Shown here: positions 47,108 to 57,060 of the stretch, piece after piece | How positions within the stretch are numbered: the stretch's first letter is position 1 | Layout of the letters: each line of letters opens with the position of its first letter | Assembly: GCA_017599285.1 (NCBI GenBank) | Contig: JAGFXX010000001.1 | Coordinates: 558,001-622,000 of the forward strand | Direction of reading: 5' to 3' | DNA: 64,000 bases | From: Cereibacter azotoformans | Lineage (GTDB): Bacteria; Pseudomonadota; Alphaproteobacteria; Rhodobacterales; Rhodobacteraceae | Translations under genes and position numbers: made by a program | Notes under the pieces: model-generated | Databases searched by the model: none | Told to the model about the DNA's origin: nothing | The model's input: the letters and a program-made list of their open reading frames with translations, nothing else

Positions 47108-47194
47108 TCAGAAGATCAGCGCGAGAATTCCGATGATCACGAGCAGGCCGACGATGAAGATGAAGCCGACGGTGCCGCCGATGAACTTGAGCAT
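47108..47194 (-). CDS. 28-residue single-span membrane peptide
   Basis: The minus strand encodes MLKFIGGTVGFIFIVGLLVI followed by IGILALIF and TGA. Nearly the whole chain is one hydrophobic helix with Lys3 near the N-terminus. AAAGGAG lies seven bases before the ATG, an excellent ribosome site, and a GGAAC-N16-GGTT promoter-like pair sits 27 bp upstream (47221-47245). The peptide looks like the small single-span proteins (MLKxIGG start) seen in other Rhodobacteraceae. Its role is unknown; a membrane or envelope stress function is a guess from its promoter and neighbours. Confidence 0.68.
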   Translation of the reverse strand: MLKFIGGTVGFIFIVGLLVIIGILALIF

Positions 47195-47218: not shown

Positions 47219-48541
47219 TCAACCGGCAACACAAGGCTCTGTTCCCGGGCGGCGCCGGATCGAGGCCAGCACCATGCCGCTGCGGGGCTGGGCGGGAAGG
47301 CGGTTCAGCCGCACGCCAAGATCCTGTGGGGGAATCTCGTAGTCCATCTCGAGGCAGAGCAGGCGGATCGCCTCCTTCAGCAGTTCGACCGTGATCATCT
47401 CGCCGGGGCACCGATGGGTGACGGCAACCTCGCCACCGCCCTGCGGGACGAAGCAATCGTCCTGCCCGGACCAACTCAGCATCCGCTCTGCCCGGAAGCG
47501 GGCGGGATCGGGGAAGTTGCGCGCATCGTGCAGCGTGCCGTAGAGATCCAGAAGCAGCCACTGGTCGGCGGGCAGGTCGTAGCCCTCCCACTGCAGGGGG
47601 CGGGTCGTGACGGCGGCGGTGAAGGGGAAGAAGGGCGAGATCCGACGCACCTCCTCGGCGAAGTCGGCCGCCAGTTCCAGCGTCCCCGAGCGGAAGAGGT
47701 CGCGCCAGTTGGTCTCGCGGTGCAGCGCCAGCGCGGTGAAGGTGATGTAGCGCCCGACCGCCACGATGGGGCGCAGGACATTGAGCAGTTCGACCGCCGC
47801 CACCGTGTCATCGAGCAGCGCGCCGTCGGCTTCCCGGTGGAAGGCGATGGCATGAAGCGCCGTCGCGCTCCCCGGCACCACCTCCCCGGCCCGCACCTGC
47901 TCGATCAGCTTGCGCAGGCGCCGTTCCGTGCCCGACCGCCGCATCTGGGCCAGCCAGTTGCGCGGGCCGATGCTGCCGGCCTTGTCGATCATGTCGAAGA
48001 TCTCTTCGGCCAGCCGCGCCTCGGGCTGGTTCTCGACGCCGGCCCAGCGACAGGCGGCGCGGGTCAGCACGCGCGCGGCCTCCTGCTGCAGGACGATGCT
48101 GTCGGCTTCTTCCCACTCGTCCAGCGCGGCGCGCCAGGCAGCGCGAAACTCTGCGACCAGCGCCTCCACGCGCGCGGGATCCATGCAGATGCCGAGGAAC
48201 AGGGCCTTGCGGTGACGGTGCGCCGGCCCTTCGAGCTGCTGCACCGAGCCCTTGTCCTGCAACAGATGCAGCACGCTCGAGGGCATCGCGCCCACGCGCG
48301 TCAGGCCCTCGGCGCCATAAAGCAGCCGGGCCGCGGTGCCGCCGCGCAGGCAGATCACCTCGCGCAGGCGGATGCGGGTCGAGACGATGTCGCTGTCGAG
48401 CTGGTCGCAGAGGTTCGACACGAACCTGTAGCCTTCCGACAGCAGCCCCATCGACGCATCGAGCCGGGGATCGCGCGGGATCTCGCGGCCGCAGGTTGTA
48501 TCGGAAGGGCCCGCTTCATGGCGGGCGTCGCTGTTCGACAT
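47219..48541 (-). CDS. Cytochrome P450, CYP152 (fatty-acid peroxygenase) type
   Basis: A 440-residue P450. The haem-thiolate motif is FVPQGGGEVAVTHRCPGE with Cys378, and the I-helix reads VLRPIVAVGRYITFTALAL, where the Arg-Pro pair replaces the usual acid-alcohol pair. Both features mark CYP152 enzymes, which use hydrogen peroxide to hydroxylate or decarboxylate fatty acids without a reductase. ATG 48541 follows GAGGGGAC; the 14 codons upstream in the same frame are probably not translated. A perfect GGAAC-N16-CGTT pair lies 28 bp upstream. A catalase gene is two genes away, so peroxide metabolism links them. Confidence 0.92.
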   Translation of the reverse strand: MSNSDARHEAGPSDTTCGREIPRDPRLDASMGLLSEGYRFVSNLCDQLDSDIVSTRIRLREVICLRGGTAARLLYGAEGLTRVGAMPSSVLHLLQDKGSVQQLEGPAHRHRKALFLGICMDPARVEALVAEFRAAWRAALDEWEEADSIVLQQEAARVLTRAACRWAGVENQPEARLAEEIFDMIDKAGSIGPRNWLAQMRRSGTERRLRKLIEQVRAGEVVPGSATALHAIAFHREADGALLDDTVAAVELLNVLRPIVAVGRYITFTALALHRETNWRDLFRSGTLELAADFAEEVRRISPFFPFTAAVTTRPLQWEGYDLPADQWLLLDLYGTLHDARNFPDPARFRAERMLSWSGQDDCFVPQGGGEVAVTHRCPGEMITVELLKEAIRLLCLEMDYEIPPQDLGVRLNRLPAQPRSGMVLASIRRRPGTEPCVAG

Positions 48542-48569
48542 GTTGGTCCCCTCGTTCGACAAGGCGGTC

Positions 48570-48594
48570 AACGTGGGCCACAACCGGAGGTTCC
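48570..48594 (-). promoter_or_regulatory. EcfG-type promoter upstream of the P450 gene
   Basis: On the minus strand GGAAC (48594-48590) and CGTT (48573-48570) are exactly 16 bases apart, with the -10 element 28 bp before the P450 ATG. This is a perfect match to the alphaproteobacterial general-stress sigma consensus. Confidence 0.72.
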
Positions 48595-48652
48595 TGCCGA
48601 GTGGGGTTTTCGCACGGTCATCCGGCCCCGGCCTCGGATGGGGATGGTCGCA

Positions 48653-48677
48653 AAGGGCGCCCGGCAGGGGCGCCCTT
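48653..48677 (-). terminator. Hairpin between the small membrane gene and the P450 gene
   Basis: A 9-bp stem AAGGGCGCC/GGCGCCCTT with a seven-base loop, ending TTTG on the minus strand, lies eight bases past the stop of the upstream gene. It suggests that the P450 gene is transcribed mainly from its own promoter. Confidence 0.6.
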
Positions 48678-48685
48678 CGGCCGGC

Positions 48686-48940
48686 CTAGTAGTTCGAGGG
48701 TGGATCGCTGGCCGGGAAGGACTCATCCAGTTGCTCGTCCACCTCGTCCCAGTCGTCCGGCGGGTCACGCATCGCGTCCGGGCCTGCGGGCCTGACATCC
48801 GGGTAGCCCGACGGCTGACGGCTGTTCATCAGATGCCGCACCGCCAGAGCACCGAACGCGCCGAGAATCACGGCGGAGGCGAGCATGAGCGTCGAATGCC
48901 GCCCCTCTCCCGCGCGCGTATCGTTCCTCGCATAAGCCAT
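48686..48940 (-). CDS. Small membrane protein with ESFPASDPPS motif
   Basis: An 84-residue protein with one membrane segment (STLMLASAVILGAFGALAVRHL) and a C-terminal acidic tail ending VDEQLDESFPASDPPSNY. The ESFPASDPP tail is shared by many small bacterial stress proteins of unknown function. ATG 48940 follows AGGAAGAGG. A perfect GGAAC-N16-CGTT pair lies 43 bp upstream, inside the end of the catalase gene. Confidence 0.82.
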   Translation of the reverse strand: MAYARNDTRAGEGRHSTLMLASAVILGAFGALAVRHLMNSRQPSGYPDVRPAGPDAMRDPPDDWDEVDEQLDESFPASDPPSNY

Positions 48941-48972
48941 GGTCGATCCTCTTCCTTTGCGCCCCGTGGGGC

Positions 48973-51105
48973 CTAGAGCGAAAACGTCCGCACGAGGGGA
49001 GGGTTCCCGCCCAGCGTCTGCTCGCGCGGCCAGTGGCGCAGGCTTCGGCAGGCGGCGACGAAGCTGTCGATGTCGGACGTGCCCGCGAGGGCCCGCCAAC
49101 CCTCGTCCATCTTGTCCCGCAGGGCGCAGGCGTCGATCAGCGCCTCGGCTCCGTGGTGGGCGATGAACTTGCAATGGGCATGGGCATCCGTGAGGAAGTC
49201 CTGCGCGGCCGGATTGGCGGCGATTGCCACCGCCTCGGCGCCCGGCAGCACCGCCACCGCATCAAAGAGCACCGAAGGCCCGCCGCCGAGCTTCTCGTCG
49301 GCCGGGTGCAGCGCGCCCGCGCTGTCCGTCACCCCACCGATGCGGGGGGCCACCAGCTTGACCATGGCGCCCTCGGCCGCAAGGATCGAGCGCAGTTCCG
49401 AGAGCAGGCCGGCCTCGACACCGTCTCCGACAAGGACGCCGACGGTCCGGCCGGCAAAGGAGGGCGGCGGGTTCTTCAGGATGCTCAGCGCGTCCGACGG
49501 AGGCAGGTCGGTGCGCGTGGGCCGGGCCGCCGGGGCCGGATCGGGCATCGCAGCCAGGCCCAGCCCCTTCGCGACCGCCTCGGCCAGCCCCTCGTCGATG
49601 TTGAGCAGATGGGCCACGATCCGCGCGCGGATCTCGATCTCCTGGCATTTCGACAGTTCGAACACCAGCGCATCGCGAATGTGGCCCTGCTCGACCGGCG
49701 TCTGGCTCAGGAAGAACTGCCGCGCCTGGCTGTAGTGGTCGGCAAAGCTCTCGGGCCGGAGGCGGCGCTTCTCGCCTTCCTCGCGCACGGCGTAGCTCAC
49801 ATAGCCCTCGAGCGGATGGGCGCGCGGCCCCTTGCCCCAGCCGTTGGGCTCGTAATTCACCCGGCCCTTGGGGTTGGCGGTCTGCATGTGGCCGTCCTGC
49901 TGGAAATTGTTCACGGGACAGCCGCGCGGCGCGTTGATCGGCAGTTTGGTGAAGTTCGGGCTGCCCAGCCGCTTGAGCTGCGTGTCGAGGTAGCTGAAGT
50001 TCCGGCCCTGCAGCAGCGGATCGTTGGTGAAGTCGATGCCGGGGATCACGTTCTGGGTGCAGAAGGCGACCTGCTCGGTCTCGGCGAAAAAGTTGTCCAC
50101 CACGCGGTCGAGCGTCAGCGTCCCCACGATGGTCAGCGGCACCAGATCCTCGGGGATGATCTTGGTCGGGTCGAGCACGTCGAAGTCGAAACGGTCGGCG
50201 AAGGCTTCGTCGAAGATCTGCAGGCCGAGATCCCATTCGGGGAAGTCGCCGGCCGTGATCGCCTCCCACAGGTCGCGCCGGTGCCGGTCGGGGTCGGCGC
50301 CGTTGACCTTCAGCGCCTCGTCCCACAGCACCGACTGAAGGCCGAGCCGGGGCTTCCAGTGGAACTTGACGAAGCTCGACTTGCCCTCGGCATTGACGAA
50401 GCGGAAGGTATGGACGCCGAACCCTTCCATGAAGCGGAAGCTCTTGGGGATCGCGCGGTCCGACATCTGCCACATCACCATGTGCATCGACTCGGGCGTC
50501 AGCGAGATGAAGTCCCAGAAATTGTCATGCGCCGATTGCGCTTGCGGGAAGCCGCGGTCGGGTTCGGGCTTCACGGCATGGACGAGGTCGGGGAACTTGA
50601 TCGCGTCCTGGATGAAGAAGACGGGAATGTTGTTGCCCACGAGGTCCCAGTTGCCTTCGTCGGTGTAGAACTTGGTGGCGAAGCCGCGCACGTCGCGCGC
50701 CAGATCCATCGAGCCTTTCGACCCCGCCACCGTCGAGAAGCGGACGAAGGTCTCGGTGACCTTGCCTTCCTTCTGGAAGGGCGCGGCGCGGGTGATCTCG
50801 GGGATGGCCTTCGTGCATTCGAAGAGCCCGTGGGCGCCAAAGCCGCGCGCATGGACCACCCGCTCGGGGATCCGCTCATGGTCGAAATGGAATATCTTTT
50901 CGCGTAGGACGAAATCCTCGAGCGCGGTGGGCCCGTTCCGCCCGACCCTGAGCGAGTTCTGGTTGTCGGCGATCGTGACGCCCTGGGCGGTGGTCAGCCG
51001 GTCGTCGCGGTCTCCGGCGTGCTGATGGAACTCACCTCCGGCCCCGTAGTCGGACACGAGGTTCTCGAAACTTCCAGGACGCGAAGCGGGCTTGTCATCG
51101 GCCAT
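48973..51105 (-). CDS. katE: Large-subunit monofunctional haem catalase
   Basis: A 710-residue clade-2 catalase (HPII type), larger than the 480-residue small-subunit form because of a C-terminal flavodoxin/DJ-1-like domain (about 555-705: [29 protein letters not shown]). The catalytic His85 is in [14 protein letters not shown], the Asn in [13 protein letters not shown], and the haem Tyr is in [15 protein letters not shown]. It removes hydrogen peroxide in the cytoplasm. ATG 51105 follows AAGGAGAG. No EcfG-type pair is seen directly upstream. The gene lies 169 bp downstream of a secreted-protein gene on the same strand. Confidence 0.95.
48983..49007 (-). promoter_or_regulatory. EcfG-type promoter inside the 3' end of the catalase gene
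   Basis: On the minus strand GGAAC (49007-49003) and CGTT (48986-48983) are 16 bases apart, a perfect consensus match, 43 bp before the small membrane protein ATG. It would let that gene be expressed apart from the catalase. Confidence 0.72.
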
Positions 51106-51274
51106 CTGGCTCTCCTTGACGACGGGATGGATGAGGGCCGGCAGCAGGGGCCGGGCATGGTTCGGCCGGATCATCGCGCGACGATCCGGCCGGGTCGGAT
51201 GCGCTGACGCACAGCGAGGCTGTCCGACAGCGGTGACGTGGCTCGCGCCGGGCGTGTCCGGCCGCGGGCCGCTC

Positions 51275-51784
51275 TTACTGGGACTGGAACGAGGTGACGA
51301 AGGAACAGGCCTGGTTCCAGACGGGCGCATTGCCCGGCGCGGGCGGGGCTTCGGACGAATTGGTCGTGTCGGTCGGCACCGGGGCAGGTGTATCGGTCCC
51401 GCCGATCTGCGACCCCGAGTCCGCCTGTTCCGTGTCAGGCCGGAGCGCACCGCCCAGGCCGCCCGATGAGGCGCCGCCCATCGAGCCCGCATCCATCAGG
51501 AAGGCCTGACAGTCGCGCTTGGCGCGCTCCTTCGCTTCGGGATCGAGGGCCGCCCAGCGTTCCTCCATCTCGTCGGTGGGGCGCAGGGACGTCATCGCTT
51601 CATCAATGAAGAAGACCTCCCGGACGTCGTCCGACCAGGTCTGCTCGCTGATGTCGCGCATGCTGCCAGTGCCGGTCTCGGTCGCGACGGGCCGGGTGGG
51701 GTCCATGCCGTCGGCGCCGCTCTGCGCCAGAACCGGCGTGCTAACGATACCGAAAAGGGCTGCAGCCAAAGCAACTTTCATCAT
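51275..51784 (-). CDS. Secreted protein of unknown function, stress island
   Basis: A 169-residue protein with a signal peptide ([21 protein letters not shown]). The conserved-looking part is [20 protein letters not shown] and [23 protein letters not shown], followed by a Gly/Ser/Thr/Pro-rich linker and a C-terminal [14 protein letters not shown]; the two cysteines could pair. I do not know the family. The start is uncertain among ATG 51781, 51784, 51790 and 51799; GGAGAG favours 51784. A GGAAC-N16-GGTT pair lies at 51847-51871. Confidence 0.72.
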
Positions 51785-51846
51785 CGACATTCTCTCCATT
51801 CGTAATCTTCATGGGGATGCCGCACGGGGTGCGGTCTTGCGGAGAG

Positions 51847-51871
51847 AACCTGTTCGGCCGAGGAATGTTCC
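51847..51871 (-). promoter_or_regulatory. EcfG-like promoter for the secreted-protein gene
   Basis: On the minus strand GGAAC (51871-51867) is followed after 16 bases by GGTT (51850-51847), one mismatch from the CGTT consensus. The -10 is about 62 bp before the proposed start. Confidence 0.5.
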
Positions 51872-51918
51872 GGCAAAGGCTCCACTGCGGCGTGGTCGGG
51901 TGAGGACGGAAGACGGGC

Positions 51919-52473
51919 ATGGAACGGGCTGCGGCGTTCTTCGGCAGGGATGCCACCTCGGTCGCCGTGGATCTGGTCGGCGCGCATCTGACGGTGCGGG
52001 GTGCGGGCGGCCGGATCGTCGAGACCGAAGCCTATGCGCCCGACGATCCCGCCTCGCACAGCTTTCGCGGCCCCACGGCGCGCAACGGGTCGATGTTCGG
52101 CTCGCCGGGCTGCGCCTATGTCTATCTGTCCTACGGCATCCACCTGTGCCTCAATGTCGTGTGTGCGCCGGGCCATGCCGTGCTGATCCGCGCCTTGGAG
52201 CCGACCGAGGGGCTGGCCGAAATGGCGCGGCGCCGGGGAACCGAGGAGGTCCAACGTCTCTGTTCGGGGCCGGGACGGATCGGGCAGGCGCTGGGACTCT
52301 CGCTGGCGGACGACGGGGCGCGGTTCGGCACGGCCGGCTTTCTTCTCCGCCCGGGCGCGCCCCTCGAGGCCGGGGCGATCCTGGTGGGGCCCCGCATCGG
52401 AATCAGCCGCGCAGCCGAGCGGCCGTGGCGGTTCGGCCTGCGGGGGTCGCCCTGCCTGAGCCGGAGGTTCTGA
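51919..52473 (+). CDS. DNA-3-methyladenine glycosylase (AAG/MPG type)
   Basis: A 184-residue base-excision enzyme of the alkyladenine glycosylase family, which removes alkylated and deaminated purines. The catalytic block is [50 protein letters not shown], with the general-base Glu in ETEAY. The C-terminal [13 protein letters not shown] and [16 protein letters not shown] blocks are typical. Cytoplasmic. It diverges from the secreted-protein gene, within the stress island. Confidence 0.95.
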
Positions 52474-52545
52474 GCCGGAACATTCTGCCCCGACGCATCT
52501 TGGTGGCAGAAGGGCACGGAATGCCCGAAGGAGAGGAGCAAGCGA

Positions 52546-52707
52546 ATGAGTGACGAGATGCGCCTCGGTCCCAACGATCCGCCGACGCCGGATCCGATGC
52601 CCGAGCCGAACCCCTATCCCGATCCGATGCCGGACCCGGATCCGATCCCGCCGGGCGACCCGGACCTGCCCGATCCGGGCGAGCAGACACCGCCGATCTA
52701 CTCCTGA
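52546..52707 (+). CDS. Proline/aspartate-repeat microprotein (53 residues)
   Basis: A short frame starting MSDEMRLGPNDPPTPDP continues as a run of Pro-Asp, Pro-Met-Pro and Pro-Tyr-Pro units and ends PPIYS. About 40 percent of residues are proline and nearly all the rest of the centre is Asp. It has no hydrophobic segment. GAGAGGAGC precedes ATG 52546. Low-complexity proline-rich microproteins of this kind are known in Rhodobacter but unexplained. A GGAAC at 52477 has no matching -10. A strong terminator follows at 52761. Confidence 0.6.
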   Translation: MSDEMRLGPNDPPTPDPMPEPNPYPDPMPDPDPIPPGDPDLPDPGEQTPPIYS

Positions 52708-52760
52708 GTCGAAGAGGATGCGGCGGCGGTCCGAAGGTCGCCGTGCCCATGACACAGGAA

Positions 52761-52786
52761 AAGGGCGGACCGGCCGGTCCGCCCTT
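52761..52786. terminator. Perfect 26-base palindrome, bidirectional terminator
   Basis: AAGGGCGGACCGG and its exact complement form a 13-bp stem without loop bases, flanked by AA on the left and CGTTCGTTTT on the right. It separates the proline-rich microprotein gene from the convergent DUF3618 gene. Confidence 0.8.
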
Positions 52787-52803
52787 CGTTCGTTTTGGGG
52801 AGT

Positions 52804-53883
52804 TCAGACGCTCTTGCCGGCAGCCTTGGTCGAGCCAGAGGATTGACCGGAGCCCTGTCCGGTCGCGGAGCTGGTGGCCTCCTCGCCCTCTTTCCCGTGC
52901 AGCACCGGATCGACCTGCGCCTTGGCTTCCGAGGCCGCGGCTTCGGCCACACGGCCGAGCTTCGAGGCCAGCGTCTCGCCTTTTTCGGGCATCAACCCTT
53001 CCTCGCGGGCGGCGTCGAGGGTGGCGTCGTAGGTCTCGCGCGCCGCGCTCATCGCACGGTCGCGCAGTTCCCACGAGGTCGCCTTGGCCTCATCCCAGAG
53101 ATCGTCGCTGGTGCGGCCCATCCAGCGGTCCTCGGTCCGCGTCCGCGGCATGGCCGCACCGATCACCGCGCCAAGCGCCACCGCCGCGGCCCCCACCAGA
53201 AGCGGCTGCTGCTCCATCCCGTGCGCCACGCTCTCGCGCATGTGCTGGGCGCTCGACGAGGCGCGGCCCTGCCAGTGCTCGGCGCGATGGCGCAGATCCT
53301 CCGAGCGATGGCCGAGGTCGTCACGCCAGTGTCCGGCGCGGTCGTAGGCATCCTCGCGGGCGCGGCCGGCGCGGTCGCGGGCATCGCCGAAGGCTCCGCC
53401 CACCTTCTCGGCCGCGGCGTGGGCGCCGTGGCTGACCCGTTCGGTTGCGGCATGGGCGGCCCGGCTGACGCTGTCGGCCGCGTCGCTGACCGCGTGCTTC
53501 ACGCGCGAGGCCATGCCTTCACCGGACGAGCGGTATTCGGCGCCTCCGCCGTAGGGCTCGTACGAGCGGCCGCCCGAGGCATAGCCCCCGGGGTAGTCGG
53601 AATAGCCGTCCGGCCCGTAGGAGGAACGGGAGCGGCTCCGGTCGGACGAGCCGCCGAAGGCGAGCCAGGCGAGGCCGAGACCGATCAGCCCGAGGGCCAC
53701 GGGATTGTCCCGCACCTGCCGCCCGGCCGAGTTCATCACCCCGCGCACGTCCTCGACGCCCACGAAATTCGCGAGGTCATCGACCACCTGATTGACCGTC
53801 ATCCGTTCCTTCAGCGCATCGAGCGTGCTCTCCACCCGGGCGCGGTTCTCTTCCACTTCGCGTTCGATCTTGTCAGAATTCAT
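52804..53883 (-). CDS. DUF3618-domain membrane-associated protein
   Basis: A 360-residue protein. The N-terminal DUF3618 block is IEREVEENRARVESTLDALKERM, followed by one hydrophobic segment (NPVALGLIGLGLAWLAFGG), a Ser/Tyr/Gly-rich stretch, a long region of charged amphipathic helix with alanine/arginine repeats, a second hydrophobic segment (PLLVGAAAVALGAVIGAAM) and another helical tail. The family is common with holin-like genes in alphaproteobacteria and is linked to membrane stress; its biochemical role is unknown. Its ATG overlaps the upstream stop. Confidence 0.85.
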   Translation of the reverse strand: MNSDKIEREVEENRARVESTLDALKERMTVNQVVDDLANFVGVEDVRGVMNSAGRQVRDNPVALGLIGLGLAWLAFGGSSDRSRSRSSYGPDGYSDYPGGYASGGRSYEPYGGGAEYRSSGEGMASRVKHAVSDAADSVSRAAHAATERVSHGAHAAAEKVGGAFGDARDRAGRAREDAYDRAGHWRDDLGHRSEDLRHRAEHWQGRASSSAQHMRESVAHGMEQQPLLVGAAAVALGAVIGAAMPRTRTEDRWMGRTSDDLWDEAKATSWELRDRAMSAARETYDATLDAAREEGLMPEKGETLASKLGRVAEAAASEAKAQVDPVLHGKEGEEATSSATGQGSGQSSGSTKAAGKSV

Positions 53884-54284
53884 CAGATTTGCTCCCGTGC
53901 AAGCCGCACGTCGCGGCTGGTCTGTTCGATGGTGCGCTCGGGCACCAGGCTGGCGGCGCTTAGGTCCTTGCGGCCGCGCGCGATGAGGATCCCGCCGATC
54001 GCGGCGAGCGCCACGCCCACGATCAGGGCGGCCCAAGCCGGGCCGACCCAATGGGCCAGCAGGACCACGAGGGCCTGCACCAGCACCAGAAGCGCCACGA
54101 GCAGCAGGATGGCGCCCGCGGCGATCAGTTCGGCGCCGATGGCGAAGCTGCGCCCCGCCTCGGCAATCTCGGCCCGCGCCAGCCGGCTTTCGCTGCGCAC
54201 GAGGCCGGTGAGGTCGCGCACCAGATCCGACAGGAGGTCCGCTATCGACCGTTCGGTGCCAAGGGGGCGCTTAGGCGCTTCCAT
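53883..54284 (-). CDS. Holin-like superfamily membrane protein
   Basis: A 133-residue protein with two hydrophobic segments (ELIAAGAILLLVALLVLVQALVVLLAHWV and AALIVGVALAAIGGILIA) and flanking amphipathic helices (SIADLLSDLVRDLTGLVRSESRLARAEI). This is the phage-holin-like family (putative actinobacterial holin X type) found in stress clusters, not a phage gene. The start overlaps the preceding gene by 14 bases. No other phage gene is near. Confidence 0.86.
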   Translation of the reverse strand: MEAPKRPLGTERSIADLLSDLVRDLTGLVRSESRLARAEIAEAGRSFAIGAELIAAGAILLLVALLVLVQALVVLLAHWVGPAWAALIVGVALAAIGGILIARGRKDLSAASLVPERTIEQTSRDVRLAREQI

Positions 54285-55251
54285 CTCGTCCCTCCTTGTC
54301 CGTTACCCCATCCTTTGCCCCTGAACCCAGCGGCTTCGCCGTCTCGCCGACGATCGGGCTGCCGGCGGGAGCGGACGGCGAGCCCTCGTGGTGGTGCGCG
54401 TCGCCCTTGTTCGTGCGGTCCGAGCCCGCCGGCCCGCTGCCCGAGGCCGCAGCGCCGCTGCCGAAGCTCGCCATGCCGGGGGTGCCGCCCTGGCCTGAGG
54501 CGGCCGAGCCGGACGACCCTGCGCCCGAGGCTCCGGCCGAACCCGTGCCGCCCAACCCCGCGCCCGCAACACCCGCGCCACCGACGCGCGTGCCGCCGAC
54601 GCCGGATCCCGTCGGGTCCGAGCGGCTTCCCATCGGATCGGTCCCCATCGGATCGCTCGGTCCGCGCGAGGGCGAGGTGCCACCGGCCGCGGAACCACCC
54701 CAGCGATCCTCGTCGCGCAGGCCCATCCGGTCCTCGTTGTCCCGGTTCCCGCGGCGGTGGCGGTCGGACGAGGAGGAGACCAGGAAGCGGCCCAGCGCGA
54801 GCCCGGCAAAGAGCGCGCCGCCCACGAAGAGCGCGGGGTTCTCGCGCCCGAAACGGGCCACGGACCGCGCCATGTCATCGGCCGAGCGGTGGCGCATGCG
54901 GTCCGCCATGTCGTCGAGCGTGTTGATCGCCTGATGGATCATGTGCGGCGGCGTCGGCGTGTCCTCACGGCGCTCGGCCTCGTCGGCCGCCTTGCGCATG
55001 GACTCGGCCAGCCCGTGGATCCCGGCGCACAGGTCCTCCTTGCGGCGGTCCACCTCGTCCATGACGAGGCGGGACACGCTGCTGCGCGCCTCGCGCGCCC
55101 CGCTGCGTGCGCGGCCGGCGGCCTCATGCAGATGGTCCCGCGCATCGTCCATCTCGCGGCGGGCGGTCTCGCGCACGTTGTCGGTGAGGCCCGGACGGCC
55201 GGACGGAGCCGAGGCTGTCCCCGGGCCGGTCATGTTCTTGTCGGTCTGCAT
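54271..55251 (-). CDS. Membrane-associated protein, first gene of the envelope stress cluster
   Basis: A 326-residue protein: a charged, alanine-rich amphipathic N-terminal half (REMDDARDHLHEAAGRARSG, RKEDLCAGIHGLAESMRKAADEA), a single hydrophobic segment (FGRENPALFVGGALFAGLALGRFLVSS), then a long Gly/Ser/Pro/Thr-rich tail. It resembles DUF883/nutrient-deprivation-type coiled proteins but I cannot place it with certainty. ATG 55251 follows GAGGAG. An EcfG-like GGAAC-N17-TGTT pair lies at 55320-55345, driving the three-gene cluster. Confidence 0.75.
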   Translation of the reverse strand: MQTDKNMTGPGTASAPSGRPGLTDNVRETARREMDDARDHLHEAAGRARSGAREARSSVSRLVMDEVDRRKEDLCAGIHGLAESMRKAADEAERREDTPTPPHMIHQAINTLDDMADRMRHRSADDMARSVARFGRENPALFVGGALFAGLALGRFLVSSSSDRHRRGNRDNEDRMGLRDEDRWGGSAAGGTSPSRGPSDPMGTDPMGSRSDPTGSGVGGTRVGGAGVAGAGLGGTGSAGASGAGSSGSAASGQGGTPGMASFGSGAAASGSGPAGSDRTNKGDAHHHEGSPSAPAGSPIVGETAKPLGSGAKDGVTDKEGRDGSA

Positions 55252-55319
55252 CCTGATCTCCTCGCGATGTCTGTGGCCGGCGATGCGACAGGCATCCGCC
55301 TTGCCCCGTGTCGCCCAGA

Positions 55320-55345
55320 AACAGGGATCGGAAGCCATTTGTTCC
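55320..55345 (-). promoter_or_regulatory. EcfG-like promoter for the envelope cluster
   Basis: On the minus strand GGAAC (55345-55341) is followed after 17 bases by TGTT (55323-55320), about 68 bp before the 55251 start. The -35 is perfect and the -10 has one mismatch. Confidence 0.45.
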
Positions 55346-55380
55346 GAGCGCCGCGCGCCGCCCCGGTGCGGGCCACCGCG

Positions 55381-55406
55381 GGAACCAACCCGAAGCGGGG
55401 CCGGTT
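55381..55406 (+). promoter_or_regulatory. EcfG-like promoter for the FMN-binding stress protein
   Basis: GGAAC (55381-55385) is followed after 17 bases by GGTT (55403-55406), 35 bp before ATG 55442. It diverges from the minus-strand candidate at 55320-55345, so both sides of this gap carry the motif. Confidence 0.5.
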
Positions 55407-55441
55407 GCACCCGCCGTGCCACAGCAGATCAGGAGGGCCGA

Positions 55442-55939
55442 ATGGCCGACACGAAACTAGCCCAGACCGACCCCAAAGCCGCCTTCTGGAAAGAGGTCGG
55501 CAAGCTGCGCGCCGGCATGCTCGGCATCGAGGGCTCGGGTCAGCACATGCAGCCGATGTCGCATCATTGCGATGAGACGGGCGGCCGGATCTGGTTCCTC
55601 ACCAAGCGCAGCACCGACCTGTTCAAGGCGGTCGGTCCCACCAGCAAGGCGCATTTCTGCATCATCTCGCCGGATCAGGATTTCCACGCCTGCGCCTCGG
55701 GGCCCGTCGCGGACGAGATGGACCGCGCAAAGCTCGACGAGATGTGGAATCCCGTGGTGGGCGCCTGGTTCGAGGGCAAGGACGACCCCGACCTCGTGAT
55801 GCTGTCGGTGCGGCTGCAAAGCGCGGCGATCTGGGCCTCGACCGGCTCGGCGGCCCGCTTCGCCTATGAGATCGCCAAGGCCAACGTGACGGACCATGAC
55901 CCGGATGTGGGTGTGCACAATGTGGCGACGTTCGACTGA
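55442..55939 (+). CDS. Pyridoxamine 5'-phosphate oxidase-like general stress protein
   Basis: A 165-residue FMN-binding split-barrel protein of the general-stress-protein-26-like group. Typical blocks are MLGIEGSGQHMQPMSHHCDE, GRIWFLTKRSTDLF, AHFCIISPDQDFHACASGPV, and the C-terminal MLSVRLQSAAIWASTG. Such proteins bind FMN or FAD and are induced by oxidative or salt stress; the substrate is unknown. ATG 55442 follows AGGAGGGCCG. An EcfG-like pair lies upstream. Confidence 0.9.
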   Translation: MADTKLAQTDPKAAFWKEVGKLRAGMLGIEGSGQHMQPMSHHCDETGGRIWFLTKRSTDLFKAVGPTSKAHFCIISPDQDFHACASGPVADEMDRAKLDEMWNPVVGAWFEGKDDPDLVMLSVRLQSAAIWASTGSAARFAYEIAKANVTDHDPDVGVHNVATFD

Positions 55940-56048
55940 AGGGCGGATGCCCGCCCCTGCAAGGCCGGCTCTTTCGAGGGCTCCGGCCCGGCTGGGTGGG
56001 CATCACGGCCAAGATCATTGTCACGTTGAGCGTTTTGCGCGAACCTGC

Positions 56049-56073
56049 GGAACCGGGTCTCGCCAAGGGCGTT
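56049..56073 (+). promoter_or_regulatory. EcfG-type promoter upstream of the SAQST-repeat membrane protein gene
   Basis: GGAAC (56049-56053) and CGTT (56070-56073) are 16 bases apart, a perfect consensus match, 23 bp before ATG 56097. Confidence 0.72.
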
Positions 56074-56096: not shown

Positions 56097-56438
56097 ATGT
56101 CATACATGTTGGGAATCCTCGTGTTCCTCGGAATGCTGGCGGTCTGCTGGTTCGGCTTCATGGCCGCAGAACGCCGGTCGGGAAGCACGCAACTCGGGAT
56201 GGCACCGAAGCGCGCGTCCGAGCCGCATCAGACTTCGTCCGCGTCGCCTGCGGGCCATTCCTCGTCGGCCCAGTCTACGTCGGCTCAGTCCACGTCGGCC
56301 CAGTCCACGTCGGCCCCGTCTTCTCCGGCGCATTCGCCGGGGCCGGCCGCACCGTCGGAACCGGCTGCCGATCAGGCCGCCGGTCGCTCCAAGCCCGCGG
56401 AGGCGCGCACGGGTGACAGGCCCTCGCAGGCCAGCTGA
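56097..56438 (+). CDS. Single-span membrane protein with SAQST repeats
   Basis: A 113-residue protein with an N-terminal hydrophobic helix (YMLGILVFLGMLAVCWFGFMAA) and a hydrophilic, unstructured tail rich in Ser, Ala, Pro and Thr. The tail includes three SAQST pentapeptides and a degenerate fourth, encoded by a 15-base tandem repeat (56265-56324). AAAGGAGG is an ideal ribosome site before ATG 56097. I do not recognise a family. The repeats and tail suggest a periplasmic or cytoplasmic stalk; orientation is unclear. Confidence 0.75.
   Translation: MSYMLGILVFLGMLAVCWFGFMAAERRSGSTQLGMAPKRASEPHQTSSASPAGHSSSAQSTSAQSTSAQSTSAPSSPAHSPGPAAPSEPAADQAAGRSKPAEARTGDRPSQAS
56265..56324 (+). repeat. 15-base tandem repeat encoding SAQST
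   Basis: Three near-identical 15-base units (56265-56279, 56280-56294, 56295-56309; consensus TCGGCCCAGTCCACG) and a diverged fourth (56310-56324). The units differ at one or two positions. The array could vary in copy number by slippage without a frameshift. Confidence 0.9.
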
Positions 56439-56631: not shown

Positions 56632-57060
56632 ATGGTGCCAGAGGGCGACGGAATGCAGCCGGTGCATGAAGCCCCTTCTCCGAAGGGCGGGCGCACCGAA
56701 AATCTGGTGATGGTCACGGCGCTCGGCGTGATCGAGCGGGGCCTTCTGATCCTCGTGGCGGTCATGACGCTGGCCGCAACCGCGGTCGAGATCTGGTCGA
56801 TCATCGAACGGTGGAGCGTGAACCTCGGCGACATCCTGCTGATGTTCCTCTATACCGAGGTCATCGCCATGGTCGCGGTCTTCTACACCGGCAAGGGGCT
56901 GCCCTTCGTCTATCCGATCTTCATCGCCATCACCGCCCTTGCCCGCCTGATCGTGTTGCAGGGCAAGGACATGGATCCGCAGAACATCGTGCTCGAGGCG
57001 TCGGCCATCCTGCTTCTGTCCGTCGCCGCCGTGGTCCTGCTGAGGTTCGCGCGGCGCTGA
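56632..57060 (+). CDS. PsiE-like (phosphate-starvation-inducible family) membrane protein
   Basis: A 142-residue protein with four hydrophobic segments: VIERGLLILVAVMTLAATAVEI, LGDILLMFLYTEVIAMVAVFY, VYPIFIAITALARLIVL and LEASAILLLSVAAVVLLRF. The LMFLYTEVIAMVAVFY and KDMDPQN-LEASAILLLSVA pattern identifies the PsiE family. No PHO box or GGAAC pair is seen upstream, so the name alone does not show phosphate control. Its function is unknown. Confidence 0.85.
   Translation: MVPEGDGMQPVHEAPSPKGGRTENLVMVTALGVIERGLLILVAVMTLAATAVEIWSIIERWSVNLGDILLMFLYTEVIAMVAVFYTGKGLPFVYPIFIAITALARLIVLQGKDMDPQNIVLEASAILLLSVAAVVLLRFARR

Follow-up and report, generated by a model that had tools for sequence, protein, structure and literature searches.

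Genes and promoter-like sites of the island

The DNA considered here is a stretch of 64,000 nucleotides (nt) of Cereibacter azotoformans, referred to as the window, and the region of interest is an island of genes between 47.2 and 56.1 kb of it. An earlier note, made from the letters alone, had drawn attention to seven sites in this island, in each of which GGAAC is followed after 16 or 17 bases by NGTT. These were proposed to be the promoters of a local regulon of stress genes, under the control of one extracytoplasmic function (ECF)-type or RpoH-type sigma factor. A scan of the full window confirmed all seven exactly where the note had put them, and each ends 23-68 nt before a start codon on the same strand (curated starts). 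By motif and placement, they are treated here as putative promoters of the EcfG type.

The first gene of the island (47108..47194, minus strand) encodes a 28-residue, single-helix membrane peptide of the YohP family (PF25659), which scores 39.1 bits against a gathering cut-off of 27 over residues 1-28 of 28. Its putative promoter, GGAAC-N16-GGTT (47221..47245, minus), is found 26 nt away, inside the 3' end of the neighbouring gene (47219..48541, minus). This neighbour codes for a CYP152-like P450, probably an H2O2-dependent fatty-acid peroxygenase (PF00067, 31.2 bits, cut-off 22.8), and is preceded at 28 nt by a site of its own, GGAAC-N16-CGTT (48570..48594, minus). Further along lies the gene of an 84-residue membrane protein (48686..48940, minus) that carries the C-terminal stretch ESFPASDPPSNY and falls in no Pfam family, here called the ESFPASDPP protein. 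Its site, GGAAC-N16-CGTT (48983..49007, minus), stands at 42 nt and is again embedded in the 3' end of a gene, that of a katE-like long catalase of the HPII type (48973..51105, minus; PF00199, PF06628 and PF18011). Against NF008422, the catalase scores 896 bits, under the cut-off of 1102.

A secreted protein of no known family follows (51275..51790, minus), with GGAAC-N16-GGTT (51847..51871, minus) at 56 nt. This gene may be the first of an operon that also contains katE, which begins 169 nt further on, and its promoter perhaps also serves katE. Overlapping this site is a divergent one that had been overlooked, AGAAC-N16-TGTT (51845..51869, plus), which has one mismatch and stands before the gene of a methylpurine-DNA glycosylase (51919..52473, plus; PF02245, 195.5 bits). 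Downstream of the glycosylase, an acidic protein of 53 residues with PDP/MPDP repeats and no Pfam family is encoded at 52546-52707 of the window.

The envelope cluster consists of three minus-strand genes. Gene 1 (54271..55251) encodes a low-complexity protein with no family above cut-off, gene 2 (53883..54284) a Phage_holin_3_6 family membrane protein (PF07332, 99 bits), and gene 3 (52804..53883) a DUF3618 protein (PF12277, 29.6 bits, cut-off 24.9). The cluster is preceded at 68 nt by GGAAC-N17-TGTT (55320..55345, minus). On the plus strand, GGAAC-N17-GGTT (55381..55406) stands 35 nt before the gene of a pyridoxamine-phosphate-oxidase-like, flavin mononucleotide (FMN)-binding protein (55442..55939; PF16242, 125 bits), which we take to be of the general stress protein 26 (GSP26) type. 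The last site, GGAAC-N16-CGTT (56049..56073, plus), lies 23 nt before the gene of a SAQST-repeat protein (56097..56438, plus) that has an N-terminal hydrophobic stretch and no family. A PsiE-family membrane protein without an EcfG-type site (56632-57060 of the window) adjoins the island. A promoter scan found no sigma-70 promoter in the island; there are 10 terminator-like sites, where shuffled sequence has 4.1 on average, and these are not used in the argument. The proposal that these are stress genes largely holds; the island is a cluster, some nine kilobases long, of genes for oxidative stress and the cell envelope.

GGAAC-N16/17-NGTT is found 10 times in the window (three of these beyond the island), as compared to a mean of 1.54 and a maximum of 5 in 100 dinucleotide shuffles. 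When 90 permutations of the letters (the true one included) were counted in the island, the true pattern gave 7 matches against a mean of 0.41, and the next two, with 3 each, are the true pattern shifted by one base. With the spacing varied from 8 to 31, the spacings other than the two claimed yield 0-2 matches each. Of all position/strand slots in the island, just 3.4% have a curated start at 20-70 nt downstream of them. Counting how often the motif falls by chance, as the earlier note had proposed, thus places it well above the permuted and wrong-spacing controls, both in the island and in intergenic DNA elsewhere. An origin of the sites as chance matches, from base composition or codon use, would fit the occurrence of the motif within genes (39 of 140 matches), a reversed-pattern control that is often above the true count in other genomes of the family, and the lack of a spacing-specific excess in genomes without NepR. 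The sites, however, are spacing-specific, placed upstream of genes and conserved while their spacers change; such an origin is extremely improbable and is ruled out by the spacing and permutation controls.

The PhyR-NepR-EcfG circuit and its sigma factors

The earlier note had remarked that many Rhodobacterales are thought to lack the PhyR-NepR-EcfG circuit, and had suggested a search for the three homologues. For this genome, a missing circuit is refuted: all three are found, encoded together with a HisKA_2 kinase, and there is a second EcfG-like sigma factor. NepR is present in one copy of 68 residues (PF18557, 56.2 bits, cut-off 25.7). Its gene lies directly upstream of that of an EcfG-type ECF sigma factor, the nepR stop overlapping the sigma start. 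This EcfG, which is 194 residues long and was scored from a start 17 codons late, reaches 338.5 bits with NF009198 (cut-off 270) and matches PDB 5uxx with an E-value of 1.7e-49. Divergent to nepR-ecfG is phyR, whose product has sigma-like and receiver domains (PF22029, PF22233 and PF00072, all above cut-off) and scores 364.6 bits with NF006623 (cut-off 240). Downstream of ecfG, on the same strand, is the kinase gene (PF07568, 80.6 bits, cut-off 22.3); against the PhyK equivalog NF051872, the kinase scores 244, under the cut-off of 750.

Between phyR and nepR lies a palindrome (C1:2507316-2507347, on contig C1), GGAACCGAACG-N10-CGTTCGGTTCC, with perfect arms of 11 nt. It is made of two overlapping complete EcfG-type sites, one per strand. 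In 5/5 genomes of the genus the arms are invariant, and the centre varies, with four distinct sequences. Such an arrangement would be expected if transcription to either side were autoregulated.

The island is, very probably, a dense cluster of EcfG target promoters in a Cereibacter that carries the full PhyR-NepR-EcfG partner switch; the circuit genes, the promoter sites, their placement and their conservation are read from the DNA itself. The mechanism by which a kinase, through PhyR and NepR, releases EcfG is established in other species. By analogy, HisKA_2-type kinases would sense stress and phosphorylate PhyR, which would remove NepR from EcfG. RNA polymerase with EcfG would then read GGAAC-N16/17-NGTT before seven or eight transcription units of the island, and also some tens of sites elsewhere (about 50 well-placed candidates, part of them chance). 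The long catalase and the CYP152-like peroxygenase would remove hydrogen peroxide, the methylpurine glycosylase would repair DNA, and the DUF3618/holin-like cluster, the ESFPASDPP protein and the YohP-type micropeptide would protect or remodel the envelope.

Another sigma factor might read the sites instead, be it RpoHI or RpoHII, RpoE/ChrR or a further ECF factor at C1:179907. The genome encodes eight sigma factors with sigma-70 region 2 (PF04542 profile search), and the authors of PMC5830050 regard RpoE, RpoHI and RpoHII as the principal regulators of the stress responses of Rhodobacter sphaeroides. This is very unlikely all the same. The RpoH promoters of R. sphaeroides have TTG in the -35 element (PMC3441632), but GGAAC stands there at 7/7 sites, with no TTG. 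The RpoH half of the earlier proposal was set aside on this point, separate RpoH promoters not having been searched for, and its ECF half very probably stands, with EcfG as the factor. Further, the spacing-specific excess of the motif follows NepR across the family, and in 5/5 genomes of the genus two copies of the motif lie between phyR and nepR-ecfG. The consensus is also equal to the published EcfG motif (PMC6599016, PMC12148442), as the earlier note had stated.

The second EcfG-like sigma factor (C1:1212552-1213055) shares 47% identity with the first across 156 residues. Its gene has no adjacent NepR match and is itself preceded by the motif at 41 nt. This factor could be the main reader of the island, which would then be the late arm of a two-step cascade. 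Hierarchical control by EcfG1 and EcfG2 is described in Sphingopyxis granuli (PMC7083833). Such a cascade is rather unlikely here; both factors are expected to read GGAAC/GTT, and the sequence does not separate their targets. Which of the two paralogues reads each site, like the signal and the functions of the genes, is something we infer. The second sigma gene, noted over C1:1212552-1213121, also lies near ligD and several other motif-bearing genes.

Reach and conservation of the motif

The earlier note had described the regulon as local. A purely local regulon is ruled out by a sample of 720 kb from beyond the window, made up of 36 stretches of 20 kb each, for which genes were predicted by a codon-usage script. 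The sample holds 46 matches, of which 32 are intergenic and 21 stand ahead of a predicted gene, at -45 to 150 nt. The 90 permutations, counted as before, average 5.4 intergenic matches and 3.3 upstream ones; the runner-up, with 12 upstream, is the true pattern shifted by one base. Among spacings of 10-29 before GTT, N17 and N18 give 23 and 9 intergenic matches, and the other 18 give 0-5 each.

The whole genome (3.15 Mb, two contigs) has 163 matches, as against 64 for the reversed pattern. Gene placement was recorded for 140 distinct matches. Of these, 81 stand before a predicted gene, at -45 to 200 nt (a few genes have two), 39 fall only inside genes, and 20 lie in intergenic DNA next to which no gene was called. 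The 81 do not include the SAQST site, as the script called no gene there. At 10-100 nt stand 58 of the 81, 53 of these 58 being intergenic, with three of them from the island; judged by the permuted patterns, part of the 53 is chance. The densest 9 kb contain 6 of 59 well-placed positions (10-100 nt), a density that was equalled in 1/2000 random placements. For this test, the SAQST site was added by hand, and the secreted-protein site is omitted since the script called its start late.

Outside the island, the target scan covered 46 genes directly behind a match (54 distinct proteins with neighbours and other sigma factors). The stress-type candidates among them include LigD, a Mn catalase, three DUF892 proteins, CsbD, OsmC, a Cu/Zn superoxide dismutase (SOD), topoisomerase IB, a PRC-barrel protein, two BON proteins, entericidin, DUF3309 and DUF378. 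Several other candidates belong to no family. With the circuit present and the motif recurring across the genome, the island looks like one section of a larger, already known kind of stress regulon. A compact motif-bearing cluster of five genes was noted at C1:1789407-1793491, coding for DUF378, a Mn catalase, a DUF892 protein, a response regulator and a 30-residue peptide.

Six of the seven island sites are kept, with changed spacers, in another genome of the genus (G051) and likewise in C. johrii; as the two may be mutually close, they are not two fully independent tests. The kept sites are those of the peptide, the ESFPASDPP protein, the secreted protein, the envelope cluster, the GSP26-like protein and the SAQST protein. 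In both genomes, the region between the secreted-protein and glycosylase genes has exact sites on both strands. In C. changlensis, the stretch examined covers three sites and retains all of them, those of the envelope cluster and the SAQST protein included. For the GSP26-like gene, the best 80 of 100 loci were compared, one being dropped and 79 having at least 150 nt of upstream DNA. An exact motif is found within about 300 nt upstream in 66/79 relatives, 51 of them within 117 nt, and the wrong-spacing control gives 9 matches summed over ten spacings.

Across the family, NepR was found in 46/100 genomes (45 above the Pfam cut-off), so that, for roughly half of this sample, the view of a circuit missing from many Rhodobacterales is borne out. 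The ratio of GGAAC-N16/17-CGTT to GGAAC-N19/20-CGTT has a median of 1.32 in the 46 genomes with NepR and 1.01 in the 54 without it (Mann-Whitney P=4e-8; P=1.3e-7 without the own genus). This result links the motif with the NepR/EcfG system, not with RpoH or RpoE.

Several observations weigh against reading the island as a cluster of EcfG targets. The family-wide statistics ignore shared ancestry. In many genomes, with and without NepR, the reversed pattern is counted more often than the true one (169 vs 54 in G006), which we take to be an effect of composition; thus, comparisons between genomes can rely on the spacing control only. The genome is 83.66% complete. There is no site immediately upstream of katE (curated starts), and the P450 site is lost by an indel in G051 and has no exact counterpart in C. 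johrii. Among the GSP26-like loci, 15 of the 66 sites lie at 231-254 nt, and 13/79 loci are without the motif, five of which (L198, L203-L206) are presumably from non-alphaproteobacteria. Some candidate targets are not obviously of stress type, namely a UbiA prenyltransferase, a glucose/sorbosone dehydrogenase, an epimerase, a molybdopterin oxidoreductase and a NAD synthase. Lastly, in the account of PMC5830050, loss of phyR did not raise the sensitivity of R. sphaeroides to oxidative, heat or salt stress, and the mRNA of catA, a catalase gene that may correspond to katE, rose more strongly in this mutant, not less.

The YohP-like peptide, the P450 and known stress systems

The peptide of the island resembles the 27-residue YohP of E. 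coli in length, in its single hydrophobic helix and in its membership of PF25659, and differs in standing behind a putative EcfG-type site. In E. coli, YohP goes up in stationary phase and upon exposure to sodium dodecyl sulfate/ethylenediaminetetraacetic acid (SDS/EDTA) or H2O2, and it lowers the membrane potential (PMC12719787). The peptide is an uncommon member of the regulon, present in 5/198 genomes of the family, and no match was found in 72,556 plasmid records. An exact EcfG-type site lies 22-36 nt upstream of the yohP-like gene in 6/8 distinct genomes that have it. In G047 the exact site is at 210 nt, and in C. changlensis a one-mismatch site stands at 30 nt, which is weak (2 locus matches vs 1.39 expected). 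An alphaproteobacterium of another family (G306) shows the order site, yohP-like gene (at 32 nt), CYP152. In the tandem of this kind at L262 1307-2730, the P450 match carries one internal TGA.

The CYP152 fatty-acid peroxygenases include P450 BS-beta, SP-alpha and OleT. The island P450 is similar to them, its best sequence match in the PDB being CYP152A1 (1izo) over residues 19-431, with the R-P and HRCPGE stretches aligned; presumably, the Arg-Pro replaces the acid-alcohol pair and HRCPGE is the Cys ligand loop. It differs in scoring 422 bits with the NCBIfam CypC equivalog NF053744, under the cut-off of 600, and was not filed as CypC; it may nonetheless work like CypC. Within the family, 12/100 genomes have relatives of CYP152 at E <= 0.001, eight of these at < 1e-50; within the class, 6/385 have them at E <= 1e-40. 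Fifteen P450 loci, including the own one and that of G051, were checked for the site. It precedes the P450 in the own genome, in G306 (with yohP between) and in C. changlensis, where some 7 nt separate it from the estimated start; in G047 it overlaps the estimated start. The other 11/15 loci are without it, one of them, L263, being a fragment that has no upstream DNA. A general role of CYP152 as an EcfG target is, therefore, not supported.

Tentatively, a YohP-type micropeptide might belong to the general stress regulon of Rhodobacteraceae, in some cases with a CYP152 peroxygenase as its partner. By analogy with E. coli, part of the membrane-stress defence under EcfG would then act through insertion of the 28-residue helix, which would lower the membrane potential and slow metabolism, and the peroxygenase would consume peroxide on fatty acids. 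Searches of open-licence PMC text found no literature joining YohP with EcfG, and nothing relevant on CYP152 or peroxygenase with general stress or a sigma factor.

These sites provide a testable list of promoters for a branch of stress control that has been poorly mapped in bacteria of the Rhodobacter type. The excess of the motif follows NepR across the family and so suggests a sequence-only test for species that keep a working general stress response. Among the open-licence literature matches listed, no EcfG regulon map was found for a member of Rhodobacterales; the regulon itself is of an ordinary sort and, apparently, had not been mapped in this order. Within the wider literature, a general stress response with two copies each of PhyR and EcfG is described in Rubellimicrobium thermophilum (PMC12148442), and in R. 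capsulatus, disruptions of phyR and of an ecfG-like gene leave the production of gene transfer agents unchanged (PMC3999984).

The EcfG regulon of Sphingomonas melonis Fr1 is different in that 'Cytochrome P450' and 'CsbD' are not in the main text of PMC6599016 (YohP was not searched for there). It is alike in having GGAAC-N-GTT sites with genes of GSP26, PRC-barrel proteins and topoisomerase IB, and in counting catalases and an OsmC-type protein among its EcfG-dependent genes (PMC6599016).

Among the closest known systems is that of R. sphaeroides, where the PhyR-NepR-EcfG locus RSP_1274/RSP_1273/RSP_1272 has the same gene set in the same divergent order (PMC5830050, the only paper found for RSP_1272 in the open-licence PMC literature). 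The phyR mutant is sensitive to membrane stress (SDS/EDTA) and to ultraviolet light in the dark (PMC5830050). The envelope genes and the YohP-type peptide of the island are candidates behind the SDS/EDTA and ethanol sensitivity of this mutant, the link of the peptide to the SDS/EDTA phenotype being one that we infer. In that account, the circuit was given a specialised role in membrane stress, and the parts of it consulted contain no map of the EcfG regulon (PMC5830050). Here, in contrast, well-placed motifs precede about 50 genes, including those for catalases, SOD and DNA repair, and the published view of PhyR-EcfG as purely specialised in R. sphaeroides is called into question.

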